A DNA stretch of 25,602 nt, from the IMG/VR virus record IMGVR_UViG_3300039412_000686, positions 1 through 25,602 of that record, one strand, 5' to 3'. Position 1 is the stretch's first letter. Each line of letters begins with the position of its first letter. The stretch comes from a virus. Below the pieces are notes generated by a model, which was given only the letters and a program-made list of their open reading frames with translations, was not told where the DNA came from and ran no database searches. Shown piece by piece: positions 7,850 through 25,602 of the stretch. A program made the translations under genes and the position numbers.

Positions 7850-8176
7850 ATGACAACTTATCGTATTACATCTCCTGTATTCGTCGCGGCACTGATCGCT
7901 AACGAAGGGCAAGTTTTACAAGCCGCGCCAGTTCTTGGTTGGGCCGTTGGGCGCGAACTCACCCCAGCTATCGAATACTGCAAGCAGCGCGGCTGGCAAG
8001 TTGAATGCCTTGAACGCACGTCACTCTCTGACTGGATCGAGTTCGACGGCGTTACATACGAGATCAAGTGGCATGTCGGCTTGGAGCGTATTCAACGTAT
8101 TACAAAACACGAAGACGGCGAGCAAGAGGACGTTTCTTTCCGCGACTTACCAGACTTCGTGAAAGGGGCGTTATGA
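7850..8176 (+). CDS. unknown phage protein, 108 aa
   Basis: The product starts MTTYRITSPVFVAALIANEG and has two short alpha/beta units: VLQAAPVLGWAVGRE, then YCKQRGWQVECLERT, ending in a polar acidic tail. Similar small proteins beginning ITSPxFVAA occur beside phage polymerase genes, but I know of no function. No metal or nucleotide motif is visible. It is preceded by an A/T-rich leader without an SD site, 12 bases after the methyltransferase stop, and overlaps the polymerase start (ATGA). An SD-like AAAGGGG within its last codons probably serves the polymerase gene. Confidence 0.6.
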   Translation: MTTYRITSPVFVAALIANEGQVLQAAPVLGWAVGRELTPAIEYCKQRGWQVECLERTSLSDWIEFDGVTYEIKWHVGLERIQRITKHEDGEQEDVSFRDLPDFVKGAL

Positions 8177-10845
8177 TCGGCGTACCAAACAAATTCCCCT
8201 TGATTCCTAGCAGTCAACGCATCGCCATCATTGGCGAAGCGCCGGGGAAGGATGACGTCGTGGCAAACGAACCATTCTGCGGTGCGTCGGGACGCTTCCT
8301 TTCTGCGCTTTTATCTAAGGCAGGCATCTCGCGGAGCTGTTGTTTTCTCGGCAACGTTTGTCAGATCAACCCTCCCTGCGGGAAGCTGGAGCTTTTCGAC
8401 TGGAACGGCTACGAGATGCAAGAAGGGATGCGGCAGCTGCGCGAAGACCTTGCATCGTTCAAGCCGAACGTCACCTTGCTCTTAGGCGCAGTGCCCCTGA
8501 ACTGGGCCAAAGAAGCACCGTCAAAAGGGCCAGTCGTTTTCTCGAAGGCGGTTTTCAAACTCTCCTCTTGGCGCGGTTACCTCTTCGACTCCAAGCTTTG
8601 CGGGAAGGCCATTGCAACGTATCATCCTACTTTTACTTTGCGTGACTACTCCGTCGCACCGCTGCTTCTCTTTGACCTTAAGAAGGCAAAACGCGAGGCG
8701 GGATCGCCTACGCTTATCGTTGAGCCTCGGCAATTTCAGATTCCAACCAACCTACAAGCTTGTCTTACCTTGCTTGACGAAGTCAACGAAAAAAGGGCTC
8801 CTGTGGGCACGGACATCGAGGGCGGCATCTCGTCTATGTCCTGCATCTCCTTCACGCTCTCGCGCACTCACGCCTTCGTCGTCCCTTTCCTTCGCAAGGA
8901 CGGCTCGCATTACTGGACTCTCGAAGAAGAATGCGCTATTATGCGGAAGCTTGCGCGCGTTCTCGAAAACCCTCTCGTGCCAAAGATACTACAGAACTGC
9001 CTTTATGACACGTTCGTCCTGCAATACTCCTACGGCATCTGTGTCCGTGGCATTGTGGACGATACGATGCTCAAGGCGTGGGAGCTTTACTGCGAACTCG
9101 AAAAGGGCCTTGGCACTCTTGTCTCAATCTATACGAACGCGGCGAACTATAAAGGCGACCGCAAGGCAGAGGACGATACGACGTTTTACAACTACTGCTG
9201 CATGGACTCTTGTATGGCGTTAGAGATAGCAAAGCACCCCTGGTTTAAGACCGAGCTTCGCCCAACGGGCATGGCGCATTACCAATTCAACCTCGACATG
9301 CTTGCACCACTTCGCTACATGGAAATGCAGGGTATGCGTTATGACTCGGCAAAAGCTGCCGAGCGTCGTGCTGCGTTACAGAAGAAAGAGTTCGAGGAGC
9401 AGGCAAAGCTTAACGCGCTTGTGGGCTGTCGCCTTCCCTCGTGGAATCCGAACTTTGTTTTGAACCACGCAGTGGACTTAATGGGCATGAAAAGAAACTG
9501 GGCCACAAGTTTCTTATCGTTAACCGTTAATTGCAAAAAGCCCTATAAAGAGCAAGCGTTCCGTCTCGCACAACTCTGGGAAAACGAGCCCTTTTCCCTT
9601 GCGTCTATTGGCGAGATAGAGAACTTACTCAAAGTCTCCCTCAACATCTCTTCTCCAAAGCAATGTTGTTCGTATCTTTACGATACACTTAAACTACCCA
9701 CACAGTTCTCTTCCGGGCCAACGCCTCATCCAACGGCGGACTACGAAGCTCTTTTGAACCTCTCAAAGTACTGTCTCAATAGCGAGCAACCAGAAAAGAT
9801 GAAAGTGATCGAGCATATTAAAGTGCTTCGCGCACTCTCCACTCGGTCTGCTATGCTTTCGATTCAAACAGACAAGGACGGACGCATACGCTGTGGATAT
9901 AACGTCGTCGGTTCGGAAACAGGTCGCATCACTTGCTACTCCTCTCCTACTGGTTCGGGTTACAACCTGCAAACAATTCCAAACTACACCGACCCTGCTG
10001 ACGCGCCAGGTGCAATTCTTGGCGACCGTGACCTCTTCCTCGCAGACGAAGGCCATTGGCTTTTTCAATGCGACCTTGAAGGTGCGGACGGCTGGACTGT
10101 TGCCGCGTACTGCAAAATGCTTGGCGACCCGACTATGTTCGACGACTATAAGTTCGGCTTACGTCCTGCGAAAATACTTGCCTTAATGTTGCGTGGGGTT
10201 TCTGTTGACTTTAAAGATAGAGACGCGCTTGCAAAAGCTTCCGTCGCGGTGAAGAAGAGCGACTGGGATTACTTCGCCTGCAAGCGCACACAACATGGAG
10301 CGAACTATCTTGAAGGCCCGCGTACGATTGCAAGTAACATTCTTACGGACTCTGAAGGAAAACTCTTCATGGAAGAGGCAGAGTGCCGCAAGATGCGTGA
10401 CGCGTATTTCATGCGTTACCTTGGCATTCAAAAATGGCATCAGTGGGTCGGAAGGCAGATTGCCACGAGACCGGAACTTACGGCTGCGTCTGGTCAGGTG
10501 CGTAAGTTCTTTGGCCGACCGGACGAAATTCTCACAAAGGCCGTGGCGCACGAGCCGCAGGCGAATACGACTTACGCTACGAACCTCGCCATGCTACGCC
10601 TTTGGAAAGACCCGAAGAACCGCTATCTCGACCCGGAAGGAAAGACGCGCTTGCGTGTGCAACCGCTTCACCAAGTCCACGACGCTATCATCGGTCAGTT
10701 TCGCAAGCACGAAACGGAATGGGCGAAGGTGAAGATTCGTGAGTGGTTCAACAACCCACTCCAGATCGCCGGCCAGTCAATCGTCATCCCGTTTGAGGGC
10801 AAGTTTGGCCCCTCTTGGGGTGAGCAGAACGAGGGGAAGATTTAA
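8173..10845 (+). CDS. uracil-DNA glycosylase / family A DNA polymerase fusion, 890 aa
   Basis: The ATG at 8173 overlaps the previous stop (ATGA) after AAAGGGG; the frame is open to 8068 but that part lies in the 108-aa gene. Residues 1-170 form a family 4/5-type uracil-DNA glycosylase: GEAPGKDD (21-28), PFCGASG (34-40) and HPTFTLR (151-157). Residues 210-355 are a 3'-5' exonuclease with DIE (D214, E216), N275...D279 and YCCMD (Y341, D345). The polymerase follows: SETGRITC (581-588), motif A CDLEGADGW with D634, motif B KRTQHGANY (704-712) and motif C QVHDAIIG (834-841). Motif C reads HDA where Pol I has HDE. This is the phage replicase, with proofreading and a fused uracil sensor that could pause at or remove uracil in the template. 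Confidence 0.88.
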   Translation: MIGVPNKFPLIPSSQRIAIIGEAPGKDDVVANEPFCGASGRFLSALLSKAGISRSCCFLGNVCQINPPCGKLELFDWNGYEMQEGMRQLREDLASFKPNVTLLLGAVPLNWAKEAPSKGPVVFSKAVFKLSSWRGYLFDSKLCGKAIATYHPTFTLRDYSVAPLLLFDLKKAKREAGSPTLIVEPRQFQIPTNLQACLTLLDEVNEKRAPVGTDIEGGISSMSCISFTLSRTHAFVVPFLRKDGSHYWTLEEECAIMRKLARVLENPLVPKILQNCLYDTFVLQYSYGICVRGIVDDTMLKAWELYCELEKGLGTLVSIYTNAANYKGDRKAEDDTTFYNYCCMDSCMALEIAKHPWFKTELRPTGMAHYQFNLDMLAPLRYMEMQGMRYDSAKAAERRAALQKKEFEEQAKLNALVGCRLPSWNPNFVLNHAVDLMGMKRNWATSFLSLTVNCKKPYKEQAFRLAQLWENEPFSLASIGEIENLLKVSLNISSPKQCCSYLYDTLKLPTQFSSGPTPHPTADYEALLNLSKYCLNSEQPEKMKVIEHIKVLRALSTRSAMLSIQTDKDGRIRCGYNVVGSETGRITCYSSPTGSGYNLQTIPNYTDPADAPGAILGDRDLFLADEGHWLFQCDLEGADGWTVAAYCKMLGDPTMFDDYKFGLRPAKILALMLRGVSVDFKDRDALAKASVAVKKSDWDYFACKRTQHGANYLEGPRTIASNILTDSEGKLFMEEAECRKMRDAYFMRYLGIQKWHQWVGRQIATRPELTAASGQVRKFFGRPDEILTKAVAHEPQANTTYATNLAMLRLWKDPKNRYLDPEGKTRLRVQPLHQVHDAIIGQFRKHETEWAKVKIREWFNNPLQIAGQSIVIPFEGKFGPSWGEQNEGKI

Positions 10846-19680: not shown

Positions 19681-20979
19681 TTATCCTTCCTCGTTTTCGC
19701 TATTATAGTGTAAGACTAACGCGGAAAAAGTAGCAGGGCCACCTGTGCCGCCACCGTCGCCTTGCGAGACGCCACAAAGAGAAAAATGCGTGCCTCGGTC
19801 GGTGTACGATTGAATATCCGTATCAAAAGACGAGGCGCTGTTGTTGTAAACCAATGTCCACTCTAACGTCGCAGGGTCAGCACTCGTAGGATCGCCTGCA
19901 GACTTCTCGTCCATGCTTGCGTAAACTTTCCACGTATCTGGCGAAACGAGAGCGACGCCACCTTGTGGTGCGTTGCAAACAATGTTCACTCCTGTAGCAC
20001 CTTTGAAAATCCCAGGCGCTTTTCCGTCAAGGAACGGGATTTGCCAGTTGGCTTTAACTGAATCGTACATAATCCTAGATGGGCCACCGTATTGATACGC
20101 TGCAGGAACATTATTTGAGTCCAACCCATAAAGCCAAAGCTGCCCTTGGTAGACGAAGAAAAGCGAAGGCGTGAAGGAAAGACCCGCATTGTCCACGACA
20201 CTATAAGTCGACCATGCCAGTATCTTATTCGCGGGGAAGTAGCTTAGTGCATAAATCAAACCGTTAAGACAAAGCATGTAACGGTTCGAGGAAGGCTCCA
20301 CTCCAGCGCAAGCCAAAGCAGTCAACGCCGCGCCGGCTTTTTGCATCGCGTTAACGACTTGCACATCAACCGGACTGCCAATATCTGTGACAAAAGCGTT
20401 AAGGCTAGAATCACGAACACGTAAAGAACGAATTCCATTATCGTTTAAAGCCAGCACGTCAAGATCACCAATGGCTTTAACGGACGCCGGAGCGTTTGTA
20501 CCAAAGTCCGTAAGCAACTGCGACAAAGACCAGTTTGCAATGTTCGCGTCCACGTTAAAAATCCAAGTAGTATTCCTTGCGAAAAAAGCAAGCTTCCCTT
20601 GATACGGTGCCATTGCCACGACTGGCTCAGGAGTAGACCACCAGTCGGTTAGCTGAACGAATCCATTGCCCGTGGCATTTGAGTCATTCCATGTCAATGG
20701 AGTGTTCACCGCAGACATGAAAACGCTGTTCCCGGAAAGCGCGTAAACCTTTTGGCTAAAGGTGGAGAGGTAGGTTGGCATGGTGCCCGTAACATAACCC
20801 TGTCCCAAGTTCGTCTGCAAGCCGCTTGTCACGTCCGTAAGAGTAAAAACCCAATCCTCGCCCTCGATCCAAGTGCCAGAGAAGGTCACGCTAAAGCTCT
20901 CTTCCGTCCCTGTTACGGCAGCTACGCCACCTTGAAAAGGTGTAGCATTTGTTGAAATCGTCTGTGTCGCGGTGGCCAT
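19681..20979 (-). CDS. tail nozzle-type beta protein (C-terminal half of a gp12-like unit), 432 aa
   Basis: The sequence is almost entirely short beta strands with repeated aromatic turns, such as QGKLAFFARNTTWIFNVD, DLDVLALNDNGIRSLRV, YMLCLNGLIYALSYF and GQLWLYGLDSNNVPAAYQYG. These recur at near-regular spacing like blades of a beta-propeller. T7-type tail nozzle proteins (gp12) have such a propeller followed by outer domains. The gene directly follows the 591-aa protein carrying the usual gp12 N-terminal sequence, with the junction TAACATG. It may therefore be the second half of a two-part nozzle. No SD site is visible, so expression probably depends on coupling. Confidence 0.6.
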   Translation of the reverse strand: MATATQTISTNATPFQGGVAAVTGTEESFSVTFSGTWIEGEDWVFTLTDVTSGLQTNLGQGYVTGTMPTYLSTFSQKVYALSGNSVFMSAVNTPLTWNDSNATGNGFVQLTDWWSTPEPVVAMAPYQGKLAFFARNTTWIFNVDANIANWSLSQLLTDFGTNAPASVKAIGDLDVLALNDNGIRSLRVRDSSLNAFVTDIGSPVDVQVVNAMQKAGAALTALACAGVEPSSNRYMLCLNGLIYALSYFPANKILAWSTYSVVDNAGLSFTPSLFFVYQGQLWLYGLDSNNVPAAYQYGGPSRIMYDSVKANWQIPFLDGKAPGIFKGATGVNIVCNAPQGGVALVSPDTWKVYASMDEKSAGDPTSADPATLEWTLVYNNSASSFDTDIQSYTDRGTHFSLCGVSQGDGGGTGGPATFSALVLHYNSENEEG

Positions 20980-20980
20980 G

Positions 20981-22756
20981 TTAAGAAAGTTTTACATTAA
21001 CTTTTACTGTCACCTGGTTTCCGTTGCTGTCGGTCACGGTGCAAGTTGCAAGACCACCAATGTAATTCGTCCCCGTCCTTCCTTGCGCTACTGTAACGCT
21101 AGTGTTAAAACTGACAACATCGCCAGTCGTATTGTTAATAAAGATGGCAGAGTTGTTAATTGACCAACTATACTTATATGGGCCAACGCCGCCCTTAACA
21201 CTAACCGTCGTTGCCTGACCATTTGTCACCGTTAACGGCGAAGCAGAAGCAGAAAGGGCTGACGTGCCAGAGACCGTCGCACCACCAGAAGCAGTGTAAG
21301 TTAGCGTAACTGTTTGATTCGCAACATAGTTCTCATCCCAAAGAAAGGAAACCATTAAACCCGTAGAAGATGCCACTAAAAGCACCATTGGTTGTCCTCC
21401 GATTGTGGCAACGCTAGTCATTACCGCAGCCGCGACAGCTTGAAGAAAAAGCAAAGTATTAGCATAAGAACCGCTCGCTATCGAACCCGCCCAAATCTCC
21501 CCAAGCCCCGTCGTCGCCATTTTAGTAACGGTTAAAACACCACCCGCTGGGACGTTAATGTTGAACAGGCAGTTGCTAACGCAGATTGCCCCGTCCATAT
21601 TACTCGACGCGGAGGCGATGGCACGAATGGCCTGGCCGTTTACCGCCACTCCAGCGGGGCCATAGACCAGAACCTCGTTACCGTTTGCAAGCGCACTATA
21701 ACCGCTTGTTCCACTGTATGCGTTAATGTTCGCTGCAACCGCCGCTGCCATTGAAACCGGGTCACCCGTCCAAGCCACGGCAGCAGATGTAATGTAAGTT
21801 GCATCGTTAACATAAACGCTCATACTCGGAGGCGTGCCTGTTCCTGCGAAACCCGCGACAATAATAAAACTGGCAGTTGGCGCAACGGCATTTGAACCTG
21901 GGATACCTTTGTTCGTTTGTGACATTGTTATCACGCCAGCGGCGGATGTTGTGGAAGCAACGCCAGTAAAATTATTACCCCCCGTGCCCTTAATCGTAAC
22001 AACGCCAGAAACATTAGAAGCCGTATAGTTAGCTGTAGAGTTCGCCAACGCCACAAGGCTTTGCGCCTGATCCGTGTTGGACTCAAGGGAGGTTAAAACA
22101 AGGCCGCCAACGAAATCTTCCACAAGAGTGCCGTTGTAAAAACAAAACGTCCCGTCTGTGCCAAAAGTCGCGGCGACAAAAGGCAAGCCGTTGTAGATTG
22201 TGCCCGCAACGTATGCTGACATAGGGGAAGGCGGGGCAAGGGGACTTGTTAATTGTTGATAAATGAAAGGTGGTTTACAAAGCCCGTAACTGATGATATA
22301 AACATCCGCGCCAAGAGTATTTACATCTACACCTGGATTGTAATAAGAAAAGGTAAGAGTTGTTACCGCTAAGATGGTTGCGCCTTGAGTAGAAAACCCT
22401 GTTATGCCGTGAAACATAAACGCGCTAAAACTTTGCCCCACAGAAAGTCCGTGAGGAGCGGCGAAGGTGAAAGTTGCAATGTTATTTTTTCTTGCCATTT
22501 TTGTTGTACTAATGCTAGTATCAGCCAGCGTCGCGCTACCGAACGTATAAATCCCGCCAAGCGTGGCTAACGCACCAAAAGTATTCGCCGGCTGTGACCA
22601 CTTCACAAAAGACTTCCGCTTCTCGATCTCGCCACCCTGGTTGATATGACAGTCCACAGCCCTAAGCAAGGTTCCGGGCACGGACGTAAGCTCGCTTCTT
22701 CGCGAGTCCAAGCCGAACTTAAAGTTTTGAATTACAACGGAACCTTGCTTTGGCAT
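20981..22756 (-). CDS. tail nozzle-type protein (N-terminal half of a gp12-like unit) with internal repeats and Ig-like end, 591 aa
   Basis: The first 55 residues (QNFKFGLDSRRSELTSVPGT, then GEIEKRKSFVKW) match the common opening of podophage tail-nozzle proteins. The middle carries units of the type AAAVAANINAYSGTSGYSA + G + V/I strand, at about 232-260 and 335-370, with a weaker third at 437-470. From about 478 an Ig-like beta sandwich follows (QTVTLTYTASGGATVSG, GGVGPYKYSWSINN, ATCTVTDSNGN). Ig-like domains on phage tails often bind cell surfaces weakly. The product is thus a tail component, probably joining the tail tube and exposed to the outside. The start follows the previous stop as TAATATG. 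Confidence 0.65.
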   Translation of the reverse strand: MPKQGSVVIQNFKFGLDSRRSELTSVPGTLLRAVDCHINQGGEIEKRKSFVKWSQPANTFGALATLGGIYTFGSATLADTSISTTKMARKNNIATFTFAAPHGLSVGQSFSAFMFHGITGFSTQGATILAVTTLTFSYYNPGVDVNTLGADVYIISYGLCKPPFIYQQLTSPLAPPSPMSAYVAGTIYNGLPFVAATFGTDGTFCFYNGTLVEDFVGGLVLTSLESNTDQAQSLVALANSTANYTASNVSGVVTIKGTGGNNFTGVASTTSAAGVITMSQTNKGIPGSNAVAPTASFIIVAGFAGTGTPPSMSVYVNDATYITSAAVAWTGDPVSMAAAVAANINAYSGTSGYSALANGNEVLVYGPAGVAVNGQAIRAIASASSNMDGAICVSNCLFNINVPAGGVLTVTKMATTGLGEIWAGSIASGSYANTLLFLQAVAAAVMTSVATIGGQPMVLLVASSTGLMVSFLWDENYVANQTVTLTYTASGGATVSGTSALSASASPLTVTNGQATTVSVKGGVGPYKYSWSINNSAIFINNTTGDVVSFNTSVTVAQGRTGTNYIGGLATCTVTDSNGNQVTVKVNVKLS

Positions 22757-22757
22757 A

Positions 22758-22985
22758 TTACGGAGCGTTTGTTTCGATAGACTTCACAGAGAGCTTGTGC
22801 AGTATGTCCTGCATAGCGGCGTCCGGCACGAGCCAGACTTTGTTAGTCGCGTCCCATCGCACAGAGTGGTCACTTGGGATTACCACTAGGCGGGTCTGGC
22901 AACCTTGCCAGTAGGCCATTGAGAAGCAGAGTAGCATTACCAGCATTGTGGCTGGCGATAACCCGGTCAATTTGCGTTTCATCAT
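22758..22985 (-). CDS. small exported protein, possible outer-membrane lipoprotein spanin, 75 aa
   Basis: The start at 22985 (MMKRKLTGLSPATML) follows AAAAGGAAC and is preferred over an upstream frame extension to 23036. A basic end and a hydrophobic stretch (ATMLVMLLCFSMAYW) lead to QGCQT, where the Cys could be lipidated. The lipobox is poor, however, since residues before the Cys are W-Q-G rather than L-[AST]-G. The rest (LVVIPSDHSVRWD, KVWLVPDAAMQDILHKL) is short and polar. The gene overlaps the 73-aa membrane-protein gene by 116 bases in another frame, the layout of Rz/Rz1 spanin pairs. The role is inferred from this layout. Confidence 0.5.
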   Translation of the reverse strand: MMKRKLTGLSPATMLVMLLCFSMAYWQGCQTRLVVIPSDHSVRWDATNKVWLVPDAAMQDILHKLSVKSIETNAP

Positions 22986-23091
22986 CTTGTTCCTTTTCTC
23001 GCGGCGTGGCGTCCTTCGCAATCTTCGCCTGCACAAGCGAAATCACAAAGGGCACCAACGCCGCGAGAATGACTATAATGCCGGAGGTCAT
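22870..23091 (-). CDS. small N-anchored membrane protein, possible inner-membrane spanin, 73 aa
   Basis: The ATG at 23091 overlaps the stop of the holin candidate (ATGA). Residues 3-20 (SGIIVILAALVPFVISLV) form one membrane segment, followed by a charged helical part (AKIAKDATPREKEQDDETQ) and an amphipathic end. One N-terminal anchor plus a soluble helical tail is the shape of an Rz-type inner-membrane spanin, although it is short for one. The following exported protein starts inside it. Alternatives are a second holin or an antiholin. Confidence 0.5.
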   Translation of the reverse strand: MTSGIIVILAALVPFVISLVQAKIAKDATPREKEQDDETQIDRVIASHNAGNATLLLNGLLARLPDPPSGNPK

Positions 23092-23510
23092 TTCTTGAGC
23101 AGTCCGCGAACGACCGCGTAAACCCCCGCAAGTGCCGCCATGGTCGCGCTGCCGTCGACCGGCGGAATTTTGCCGAGATAAGTGTAGACGCCGATAGCGG
23201 CCTCAACCAAGACGACAATCCAGAACTCTGTCGTAATGTAACCAACCTTGATAACGGGAAGCACCGCCTTCACGTCTTCGTAATCCTTCTCCACAATCGG
23301 CGCGAGAGCCGGAAGGAGTTTGGAAACCGCGCTGAGGCCACCAGCCTTGTGCGCGGCGATCAAAGCGTTGACTTCGTGAGCCGCCTGAATGGCGTCGTCA
23401 AGAAGCGGCTGCGTAGCCGCTTGAATTTGTGACTGAGTGAGAACTGGAGTCGCTACTGCTGTTGCCACTGTGGGCACCGTTGTGGTCGTTGTCTGAGTTG
23501 TATCTGCCAT
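23088..23510 (-). CDS. holin candidate, 140 aa
   Basis: A Thr/Val-rich polar start (TTQTTTTTVPTVATAVATP) and a helical middle (DDAIQAAHEVNALIAAHKAG) precede two hydrophobic segments, TEFWIVVLVEAAIGVYTYLG (about 93-112) and ATMAALAGVYAVVRGLLKK (about 122-140). The last ends in basic residues. The segment GYITTEFW before the first TM is typical of a family of small phage holin-like proteins. Holins open the inner membrane at the end of infection. The gene is clustered with three other small membrane proteins, but no endolysin lies nearby. The leader is A-rich (AAACAAACGAAACAT) without an SD site. Confidence 0.6.
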   Translation of the reverse strand: MADTTQTTTTTVPTVATAVATPVLTQSQIQAATQPLLDDAIQAAHEVNALIAAHKAGGLSAVSKLLPALAPIVEKDYEDVKAVLPVIKVGYITTEFWIVVLVEAAIGVYTYLGKIPPVDGSATMAALAGVYAVVRGLLKK

Positions 23511-23534
23511 ATGTTTCGTTTGTTTTTTCTTTGT

Positions 23535-23801
23535 TTAGTGTTTCAAGAGATGATAGCCCTCAACCGCACCAAAGATAGTGGACACCACGGCGAGAATCGT
23601 GCCCAGCACACGCGCCTTTGTTTTTGTCGCCGTGTCAATCTCCGTTATTGCAGTGTCGTGTCTTTCAAGTTTTACCTCCGCTCTTTCCATGCGAGTCATC
23701 ACCTCAGTGTGGTGATTATCGACTTTAGCGGATAGCGCAATAATGCCAGCATCTATCCTGGCGATCACTGCATTGTTATCGTTTGGATTGAAGTCGCTCA
23801 T
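23535..23801 (-). CDS. coiled-coil plus C-terminal TM protein (XhlA-like), 88 aa
   Basis: Residues 10-60 form a charged amphipathic helix with regular hydrophobic spacing (IDAGIIALSAKVDNHHTEV, MERAEVKLERHDTAITEID), likely a coiled coil. It is followed by one hydrophobic segment, VLGTILAVVSTIFGAVEGY (about 65-83), and a short tail. This order is that of XhlA-type lysis-associated proteins and of some tail-anchored phage proteins. It lies immediately upstream of the holin candidate. The leader has an AAACAAACAAAAAAC run and no SD site. A role as a lysis partner is probable from context and architecture only. Confidence 0.55.
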   Translation of the reverse strand: MSDFNPNDNNAVIARIDAGIIALSAKVDNHHTEVMTRMERAEVKLERHDTAITEIDTATKTKARVLGTILAVVSTIFGAVEGYHLLKH

Positions 23802-23902: not shown

Positions 23903-24064
23903 TCATTCGGATTCAAGAGGATAAACTGGTTTGCAAGCAAAGATGATAAGGCACAAAATAGTCCATAGGTTTGTCTTTACCTTGACGCGCTTGAGCGATT
24001 CTTCCAGGTGCTCCCGGCTGATTAACAGTGTGTCGGATGATTCTTTCTGGCTCATAGGTTCCAT
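23903..24064 (-). CDS. possible small tail-anchored protein, 53 aa
   Basis: From ATG 24064 (or ATG 24055) this frame gives a polar, charged start (MSQKESSDTLLISREHLEES), a basic amphipathic helix and a hydrophobic segment LWTILCLIIFACKPVY. Other frames are open across the same DNA: a GTG-started frame 23913-24071 begins NNGTYEP, like the small ORF at 24915-25043. Which frame is used, if any, cannot be decided by eye. The region holds the downstream copies of the repeats around the FkbM gene. The remaining bases from 23802 to 23902 show no convincing gene. Confidence 0.3.
   Translation of the reverse strand: MEPMSQKESSDTLLISREHLEESLKRVKVKTNLWTILCLIIFACKPVYPLESE
23964..23974. repeat. 11-base repeat CATAGGTTTGT, copy 1
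   Basis: The same 11 bases recur at 24899-24909 in the same orientation. It accompanies the 22-base repeat in the same order on both sides of the FkbM gene. Confidence 0.5.
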
Positions 24065-24070
24065 TGTTCA
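24049..24070. repeat. 22-base direct repeat, copy 1, downstream of the FkbM gene
   Basis: GGCTCATAGGTTCCATTG then TTCA. It matches 25000-25021 at 21 of 22 positions in the same orientation, and the flanking ATGATT also recurs. It lies 16 bases after the stop of the FkbM gene. Confidence 0.8.
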
Positions 24071-24086
24071 CCGCGTTGTGACACCA

Positions 24087-24851
24087 TTATCGAGGCTTTG
24101 GAAGCACAAATGTATAATTCAAACCATCAATTGCGACCAAGACATAACCACACGCCCTCAATCGGGAAACAGATTTGATCACTTTCCAGGGGCTTGCGGG
24201 CTGGTCAAATTCGACCATTAAAATACGTGGCAAAATGCGGTCATGCAGCATCGCGCGCAGAGCTTCATGCTCCGACCCTTCAATATCCAGCTTTACCAAA
24301 TCAGGCACAGCGTGATTCCGCTCCCTCATTATCTGCCCGATGCTCTTGCATTGCGCCTCCACGAATTGGCCGTTGCTAATTATGGGAAGGATTGAGCACG
24401 ATTCGTCGTTGGGATCTGCGGGGACGTTAAGTTGAAGCACCGTGTCCCCAGAAAATATACCAATGGGAAGAAACGTGAAACGAGGGTTGGCCAGCAGGCC
24501 TGATTTAGAAACATGGCGCAACGCTCTCGGCGTAGGATCAAATGCAAAAACAGTGTGCCCAGCCTTCAAAAGTTTTTCATCAAAGGTGGTGTCCTCGCCA
24601 ACTCCCGCACAATAACAGAGCATCGATGGCGTTATGAACTCAACCGGAACGAGACGACGGCCAAGGTCGCTACCCCAAATCTCAATAGGACCACAGTCAG
24701 TCATTAGTTTGCGCCTGTGGAACGTCGCAAGAGTCAAACACGCACGCGAAGTGGCGTAACAGTAAATCTTGCGCCACACATTGCGCAGCGAAACGGCAGG
24801 AGATCGTTGGAAAATGAACCACGGATTCTTGTTGTGTGATGATGTCTTCAT
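24087..24851 (-). CDS. FkbM-family SAM-dependent methyltransferase, 254 aa
   Basis: The product has the hallmarks of FkbM methyltransferases. There is a SAM-binding loop AGVGEDTTFDEKL (82-94), an acidic strand end FAFDPTPRA (103-110), and VKLDIEGSEHEAL (186-198), the most conserved block of the family, followed by MVEFDQP. A basic, weakly hydrophobic N-terminus (1-48) precedes the domain. FkbM enzymes O-methylate sugars or small molecules and are common in glycan clusters. Between a tail fibre gene and lysis genes it is out of place for core phage functions, so it is probably cargo that alters host surface glycans or virion decoration. Short direct repeats lie on both sides. The start overlaps a 17-codon ORF (24848-24901) as ATGA. 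Confidence 0.8.
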   Translation of the reverse strand: MKTSSHNKNPWFIFQRSPAVSLRNVWRKIYCYATSRACLTLATFHRRKLMTDCGPIEIWGSDLGRRLVPVEFITPSMLCYCAGVGEDTTFDEKLLKAGHTVFAFDPTPRALRHVSKSGLLANPRFTFLPIGIFSGDTVLQLNVPADPNDESCSILPIISNGQFVEAQCKSIGQIMRERNHAVPDLVKLDIEGSEHEALRAMLHDRILPRILMVEFDQPASPWKVIKSVSRLRACGYVLVAIDGLNYTFVLPKPR

Positions 24852-24898
24852 GCGGCGATGGCGATTGGGGCGTTTTTCATTCGGGCGATGAGTTGGTT

Positions 24899-24909
24899 CA
24901 TAGGTTTGT
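24899..24909. repeat. 11-base repeat CATAGGTTTGT, copy 2
   Basis: Second copy of the 11 bases at 23964-23974, 935 bases away. It lies at the start of a 17-codon ORF that runs into the FkbM gene. Confidence 0.5.
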
Positions 24910-24914
24910 ATTGA

Positions 24915-25043
24915 CTACGGAGAGGGGTTCTGCCTAAAGCTCAATTGGTATTGCATGGCATTGGCGCTGGTGGCGGCGGCGCTTTCGTAAATGATTTTTG
25001 GCTCATAGATTCCATTGTTCATGTGCATTTGTAATTCGTTCAT
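24915..25043 (-). CDS. small ORF downstream of the tail fibre gene, 42 aa
   Basis: The ATG at 25043 lies 7 bases after the tail fibre stop, with a weak GGTGAG upstream. The product begins MNELQMHMNNGIYEPKIIYE and continues with an Ala/Ser-rich and Gln-rich end. The segment MNNGIYEP is encoded by copy 2 of the 22-base repeat; copy 1 encodes NNGTYEP in an equivalent frame, so the two may be relics of a duplicated small gene. No function is known. It could be expressed by coupling to the fibre gene. Confidence 0.4.
   Translation of the reverse strand: MNELQMHMNNGIYEPKIIYESAAATSANAMQYQLSFRQNPSP
25000..25021. repeat. 22-base direct repeat, copy 2, upstream of the FkbM gene
   Basis: GGCTCATAGATTCCATTG then TTCA. 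It differs from copy 1 (24049-24070) at one base and lies 951 bases away. It falls inside the 42-aa ORF. Confidence 0.8.
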
Positions 25044-25050
25044 TTTGCAC

Positions 25051-25602
25051 TCACCAAGGTTCCTGCATAAAGTCAATCCTGTATTGAAACAGGCTGGCAT
25101 TAGTCGTATTCCCAGAATAGTAAAACAATGCGCCGGTCGGATTGGCGATCAGATTCAAAGGATTCCCGGCTCCTGCTCCTTTAACATCCTCGGCCAAGTT
25201 ATTTTGAATCACCACAGCCACGCTGTTTGTGTATATCACTTCCCCAATGTATCGGCTTTGTCTCACTGTGGAATTACTCGCGTTTCCAATCGGTGACCAT
25301 CCACTCAAGTTCATCACAATCTGGAAATGGTTGGAATGGCCGGAAACCCATTGGTTAGTCAATATACTATATTGACTACCGATCACATTGGAAAATGAAC
25401 CATAAACAGTGAAATTGTTGGTCATACCAATTGCACCTGTAGGCAAACCCGGCAACACAATTGTCGTTTGATTATTCTGGGTGCTCACCAAATTAGTCAA
25501 TCCGCTGCCATTTAGCCCGTTGAAGATCGGGACCCAAAGCGAGTTGCTGAGGACGAAGGTCTGGCCATTTGTGGACAGCCAAAGACTGCCTTGGGTCAAG
25601 TT
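25051..25602 (-). CDS. C-terminal part of a tail fibre or spike protein (5' end outside the window)
   Basis: The frame is open to the window edge, so the first residues are missing; the TTG at 25599 need not be the true start. The visible 180-odd residues are rich in Asn, Thr, Ser and Gly with repeated short strands (SLWLSTNGQTFVLSNSLWVP, TTIVLPGLPTGAIGM, NHFQIVMNLSGW, NSVAVVIQNNLAED). This is the composition of beta-structured fibre tips that bind host receptors. The ending ASLFQYRIDFMQEPW looks like a complete terminal strand. No chaperone or enzyme motif is seen. Its place before lysis and tail-nozzle genes fits a late structural gene. A bacterial-type surface protein is less likely in this context. 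Confidence 0.55.
   Translation of the reverse strand, partial: NLTQGSLWLSTNGQTFVLSNSLWVPIFNGLNGSGLTNLVSTQNNQTTIVLPGLPTGAIGMTNNFTVYGSFSNVIGSQYSILTNQWVSGHSNHFQIVMNLSGWSPIGNASNSTVRQSRYIGEVIYTNSVAVVIQNNLAEDVKGAGAGNPLNLIANPTGALFYYSGNTTNASLFQYRIDFMQEPW

Follow-up and report, generated by a model that had tools for sequence, protein, structure and literature searches.

An FkbM-family methyltransferase gene between short direct repeats in a variable tail-fibre/lysis slot: possible gain by recombination

Introduction

The closest described parallel to the locus analysed here is found in mycobacteriophage LRRHood, whose genes 43–46 form a 1.35 kb cargo bounded by 29-bp direct repeats; a single copy is retained in relatives, and the insertion has been attributed to recombination at this short sequence (PMC3029335). 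In the mycobacteriophages Island3 and Brujita, the presence or absence of Island3 gene 68 is associated with a sequence of about 50–60 bp common to the neighbouring gene, and the same work discusses morons and the short conserved boundary sequences found at phage mosaic junctions (PMC3029335). FkbM-like methyltransferase genes have themselves been reported as part of the accessory gene content of Sinorhizobium phages and prophages (PMC5537653, PMC10460002).

The virus record considered here consists of a single window – the whole stretch of DNA that was analysed – of 25,602 bases. Like LRRHood, it carries a cargo of about 1 kb that is absent from relatives and is flanked, near gene ends, by short direct repeats exceeding chance expectation. 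However, close relatives of LRRHood show the single-copy empty site, whereas the relatives available here are too distant; moreover, the LRRHood cargo includes a repressor gene, whereas here it is an FkbM gene and the repeat copies have diverged. In the Island3/Brujita case it is the 3′ ends of genes that are shared, rather than, as here, a 5′ start region. The arrangement also recalls morons, with an accessory gene at a late-operon gene boundary and a short shared junction sequence. Unlike in classical morons, no promoter or terminator of its own was detected directly flanking FkbM (the promoter search covered the sigma-70-like type only, and counts were no higher than in shuffled sequence), which places the gene outside the moron definition. 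The FkbM-like genes of Sinorhizobium phages share its accessory status, but those phages infect Sinorhizobium.

The FkbM locus is a case of ordinary phage mosaicism, and gene gain of this kind is already known in phages. It adds one more phage with a host-type, probably surface-glycan-modifying gene beside the tail fibres, in a slot that varies within the lineage. Its interest lies mainly in locating the accessory genes of a little-known podovirus group, the suggested mechanism having already been published for other phages.

Gene order and the methyltransferase

The features around the slot all lie on the minus strand, in the order tail fibre, small ORF B, a 17-codon ORF, FkbM, small ORF A and lysis-like cassette. 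The 3′ part of the tail-fibre-like gene (25051–25602), truncated at the contig end, is placed by synteny with relatives. Small ORF B (24915–25043; 42 aa, MNELQMHMNNGIYEPKIIYE...) has a weak coding signal. The 17-aa ORF (24848–24901; MNQLIARMKNAPIAIAA), read directly from the sequence, has a stop codon that overlaps the FkbM start (ATGA), and translational coupling of the two is possible. On the other side of FkbM, small ORF A (23903–24064) encodes a small membrane protein of 53 aa with one hydrophobic segment (MEPMSQKESSDTLLISREHLEESLKRVKVKTNLWTILCLIIFAC...) in the frame favoured by codon score. An XhlA-like/holin-like ORF (23535–23801) then opens the lysis-like cassette, the remainder of which (22758–23510), assigned by synteny with relatives, encodes small membrane proteins and a lipobox protein (AYWQGC); the membrane proteins at 22758–23801 resemble a lysis cassette. 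Searches of the window for tRNAs and Rfam families gave no match, so no tRNA-type attachment site is seen in it.

The cargo gene itself (24087–24851; 254 aa) was initially annotated as a glycan-type FkbM methyltransferase, and profile matches bear this out, with 40.3 bits for PF05050 (Methyltransf_21; cut-off 22.7) and 43.7 for TIGR01444 (cut-off 37.7). Its SAM-binding and acidic motifs (GxGxD, AFDPTP and KLDIEGSE) are intact, and K[LM]DIEG, GxGxD and AFDPTP are conserved between it and bacterial homologues. The nearest annotated homologues, the best matches among annotated plasmids at about 36% identity, come from Chelatococcus daeguensis and Dinoroseobacter shibae, where they lie in polysaccharide loci; records L123–L125 carry relatives at 28–32% in unrelated contexts. 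In a profile scan, relatives at no more than 40% identity were spread over many phyla, so that no donor can be named. A search of a phage collection found no relative at E 1e-5, and single-protein scans of viral contigs and of genome contigs with FkbM gave no match. Foreign base composition was not seen in the gene (GC 0.50), whose codon score and base composition do not depart from the values spanned by the other genes of the phage. The enzyme probably methylates a host surface glycan during infection, which might, for instance, alter the receptor or shut out competing phages.

A variable slot between tail fibre and lysis genes

Relatives were gathered through alignments of the polymerase and of the gp10-like tail protein, which adjoins the slot in 11 records. 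The PF05050 search covered 20 records related through the polymerase and another 35 related mostly through gp10, many of the 55 being fragments; none of them contained a match, while the window itself matched as a positive control. This agrees with the view, already taken in the initial annotation, that FkbM is an accessory rather than a core function.

In the closest relative (G005; 54% identity in the C-terminal part of gp10), 8 bases separate the end of the last tail-fibre ORF from an XhlA-like ORF – a sub-threshold Pfam match, homologous to window positions 23535–23801 – and no FkbM gene lies between them. The slot is empty in G008, G011 and, apparently, G010. Elsewhere it holds a 46-aa membrane ORF (G002), HTH, fn3-like and response-regulator proteins (G015), a LuxR-type HTH protein (G018), fn3-like and unknown ORFs (G006) or a 106-aa ORF (L207), the fn3-like label being a reading of the sequence without a profile match. 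The same position is thus taken by differing genes in relatives, and the observations support the tail-fibre/lysis junction as a variable slot, with FkbM as one occupant.

Two of these occupants, the response-regulator receiver protein of G015 (PF00072, E 1e-14; L112) and the LuxR-type HTH protein of G018 (L116), are odd cargo for a phage late operon. One polymerase relative, G001, was dropped from the slot comparison, as its tail module is different. A single-protein scan of viral contigs with the C-terminal part of gp10 gave no match, nor did BLASTN of the polymerase against phages.

Direct repeats around FkbM

The main repeat consists of copy A (24037–24070; core 24049–24070), read directly from the sequence, and copy B (24991–25021; core 25000–25021). 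As first reported, the cores have the same orientation, a spacing of 951 bases and identity at 21 of 22 positions. Ungapped extension gives 25 identities in 27; if a 3-base (one-codon) gap is allowed, the copies align over 24037–24070 and 24991–25021, about 31–34 bases, and the match ends there. No other direct pair in the 25.6 kb window reaches 20/22, which makes this its best direct repeat; a 21/22 pair is expected by chance about 0.0013 times over the whole window and 0.0001 times within 1 kb. A search of the window at up to three mismatches found no third copy.

Copy A, downstream of FkbM, spans positions −6 to +28 relative to the ORF A start; copy B, upstream of FkbM, lies shortly past the tail-fibre stop codon. 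Written in the ORF A frame, copy A reads ATG GAA CCT ATG AGC CAG AAA GAA TCA and copy B reads ATG GAA TCT ATG AGC CAA AAA --- TCA. The aligned codons (MEPMSQKES against MESMSQK-S) thus differ by an amino-acid replacement, a synonymous change and a single-codon indel. After MESMSQK-SF, copy B diverges into unrelated sequence and then meets a stop. To judge from this alignment, copy B resembles a disrupted ORF A start more than it does a paralogue. When the flanks are joined through the repeat, 951 bases drop out and ORF A stays whole.

A second, shorter pair was also noted at the outset. Its copy A (23961–23980), inside small ORF A, contains the 11-mer ACAAACCTATG at 23964–23974; its copy B (24896–24915), with the 11-mer at 24899–24909, comprises the A-rich leader and the ATG of the 17-codon ORF. 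The 11-mers are indeed identical (11/11), with 17/20 matches over the ungapped stretch; chance would give about 0.0007 matches of this quality in the flanks compared, which makes the pair a moderately unlikely coincidence.

The initial annotation combined the two pairs into a diverged unit of 105–125 bases. This part did not hold up: the DNA between the anchors (63 nt against 79 nt) matches no better than shuffled sequence does (p ~0.84 global, ~0.76 local), so a duplicated unit of that length is unsupported. The flanks contain two short similar stretches rather than one duplicated unit. The heptapeptide NNG[TI]YEP proposed for the unit is available in a frame on either side; for copy A, however, the coding scores favour another frame (0.12 per codon for the MEPMSQKESS... 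frame, against −0.01 for the NNGTYEP frame). A scan for DNA that could encode MNNGxYEP hit three contigs, in which the motif lay within unrelated ORFs or in a frame other than theirs.

Possible origin of the insertion

Of what had been proposed, cargo gain in a variable slot is supported and duplication of a small-ORF unit of about 110 bases is not. We lean towards the reading, drawn from the sequence, that a podovirus-like phage acquired FkbM, a cellular-type, glycan-modifying gene, between its last tail-fibre gene and its lysis cassette. The gain would have involved recombination within or across the opening ~30 bases of ORF A, the gene that follows this variable slot. Such an event would have regenerated the ORF A start after FkbM and left a broken copy before it, and the 22-base direct repeat would be its trace today. 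An origin via recombination at the repeat is plausible, and we infer that the direction was gain here rather than loss elsewhere. In favour of this account, the extent of the repeat coincides with the ORF A start region (−6 to +28).

Several findings weigh against recombinational gain. No single-copy empty site was found in the relatives checked, all of them diverged at the DNA level. The initial annotation predicted one repeat copy in relatives without FkbM; no convincing copy was found in the 11 relatives, an absence that does not refute the account: they share no more than about 54% protein identity near the slot, their DNA is too diverged to preserve 22–34 bases, and an intergenic element is therefore not expected to survive in them. 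FkbM lacks a foreign composition. Other slot cargo is without strong flanking repeats, the regions searched in relatives giving only weak or fibre-internal ones. Finally, the match between the copies stops after about 34 bases and leaves the second pair unexplained.

A bolder version, in which the ~30-base ORF A start is a recurrent docking sequence for cargo swaps in the lineage, seems distinctly improbable; if it were true, FkbM, response regulators and LuxR-type regulators would be exchanged there, with the start of the next gene rebuilt each time.

Alternative explanations

The main rival to recombinational gain, albeit an unlikely one, holds that both repeat pairs are start-of-gene control elements – translation leaders, a regulator site or an RNA-binding site – kept or copied before small ORFs for their function. 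Both repeats contain or adjoin ATG codons, and the conserved stretches are short with unrelated DNA between them, as expected of sites. A-rich leaders of the ACAAA/ACAAAC type are frequent upstream of gene starts in the window, with ACAAA preceding 6 of 21 starts where 0.8 would be expected. Copy B of the second pair belongs to this type, so that control elements account for that pair quite well. The 22-mer, however, lies mostly inside the coding start of ORF A, is far longer than a leader motif and does not recur at any other gene start of the window.

It is improbable that the flanks are two diverged paralogous small genes produced by small-ORF duplication. The idea draws on the open frames that lie on both sides, on the NNGTYEP and NNGIYEP that they can encode, and on the collinearity of two similar stretches with spacings of 951 and 935 bases. 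Yet the 16-base difference between these spacings breaks the frame, the anchors have no similarity between them, the preferred frames differ between the copies, and neither ORF A nor ORF B has a convincing homologue in the 11 relatives.

Movement of the segment as a mobile cassette by a trans-acting recombinase, with the repeats as attachment sites or a target duplication, is highly improbable. A gene-sized segment with direct repeats at both ends would suit it, but what lies between the repeats is FkbM and tiny ORFs only, with neither a recombinase gene nor the matching inverted-repeat ends that mark a transposon or integrative cassette; a second cassette with the same ends is absent from the window, and the copies have already diverged. 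Chance similarity or an assembly artefact can scarcely be credited: taken by itself, the second short pair would not stand out from the weak repeats that the window contains, but only ~0.001 pairs like the 22-mer are expected there, none of 12 simulated windows contained a 21/22 direct pair, and the exact runs, at most 12 bases, are too short to mislead an assembler.

Other features of the phage and its relatives

A Shine–Dalgarno-like GGAGG precedes only 2 of the 21 gene starts; together with the A-rich leaders, this scarcity hints at a host with non-Shine–Dalgarno initiation.

All eight relatives checked (G002, G005, G006, G008, G010, G011, G015 and G018; L109–L119) have Sec signal peptide-like starts on at least one protein of the head/tail region. 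In six of them the protein concerned is 210–300 aa long, its gene immediately following the capsid-like one in G005, and most relatives also show such starts on tail-fibre-like proteins before the lysis genes. Signal peptides are unusual for virion proteins of tailed phages; the window ends before the corresponding region.

The gp10-like packaged-DNA stabilization protein (19681–22756) is split into two adjacent ORFs, for an N-terminal (20981–22756) and a C-terminal part (19681–20979), as it is in G005, whereas a single gene encodes it in Rhizobium phage RHph_N65 and Microcystis phage Mae-Yong1326-1. The replication region includes a protein with a ParB N-terminal domain (PF02195; 5819–7048), and at 8068–10845 a DNA polymerase A with an exonuclease domain carries a fused N-terminal domain of the uracil-DNA-glycosylase superfamily.
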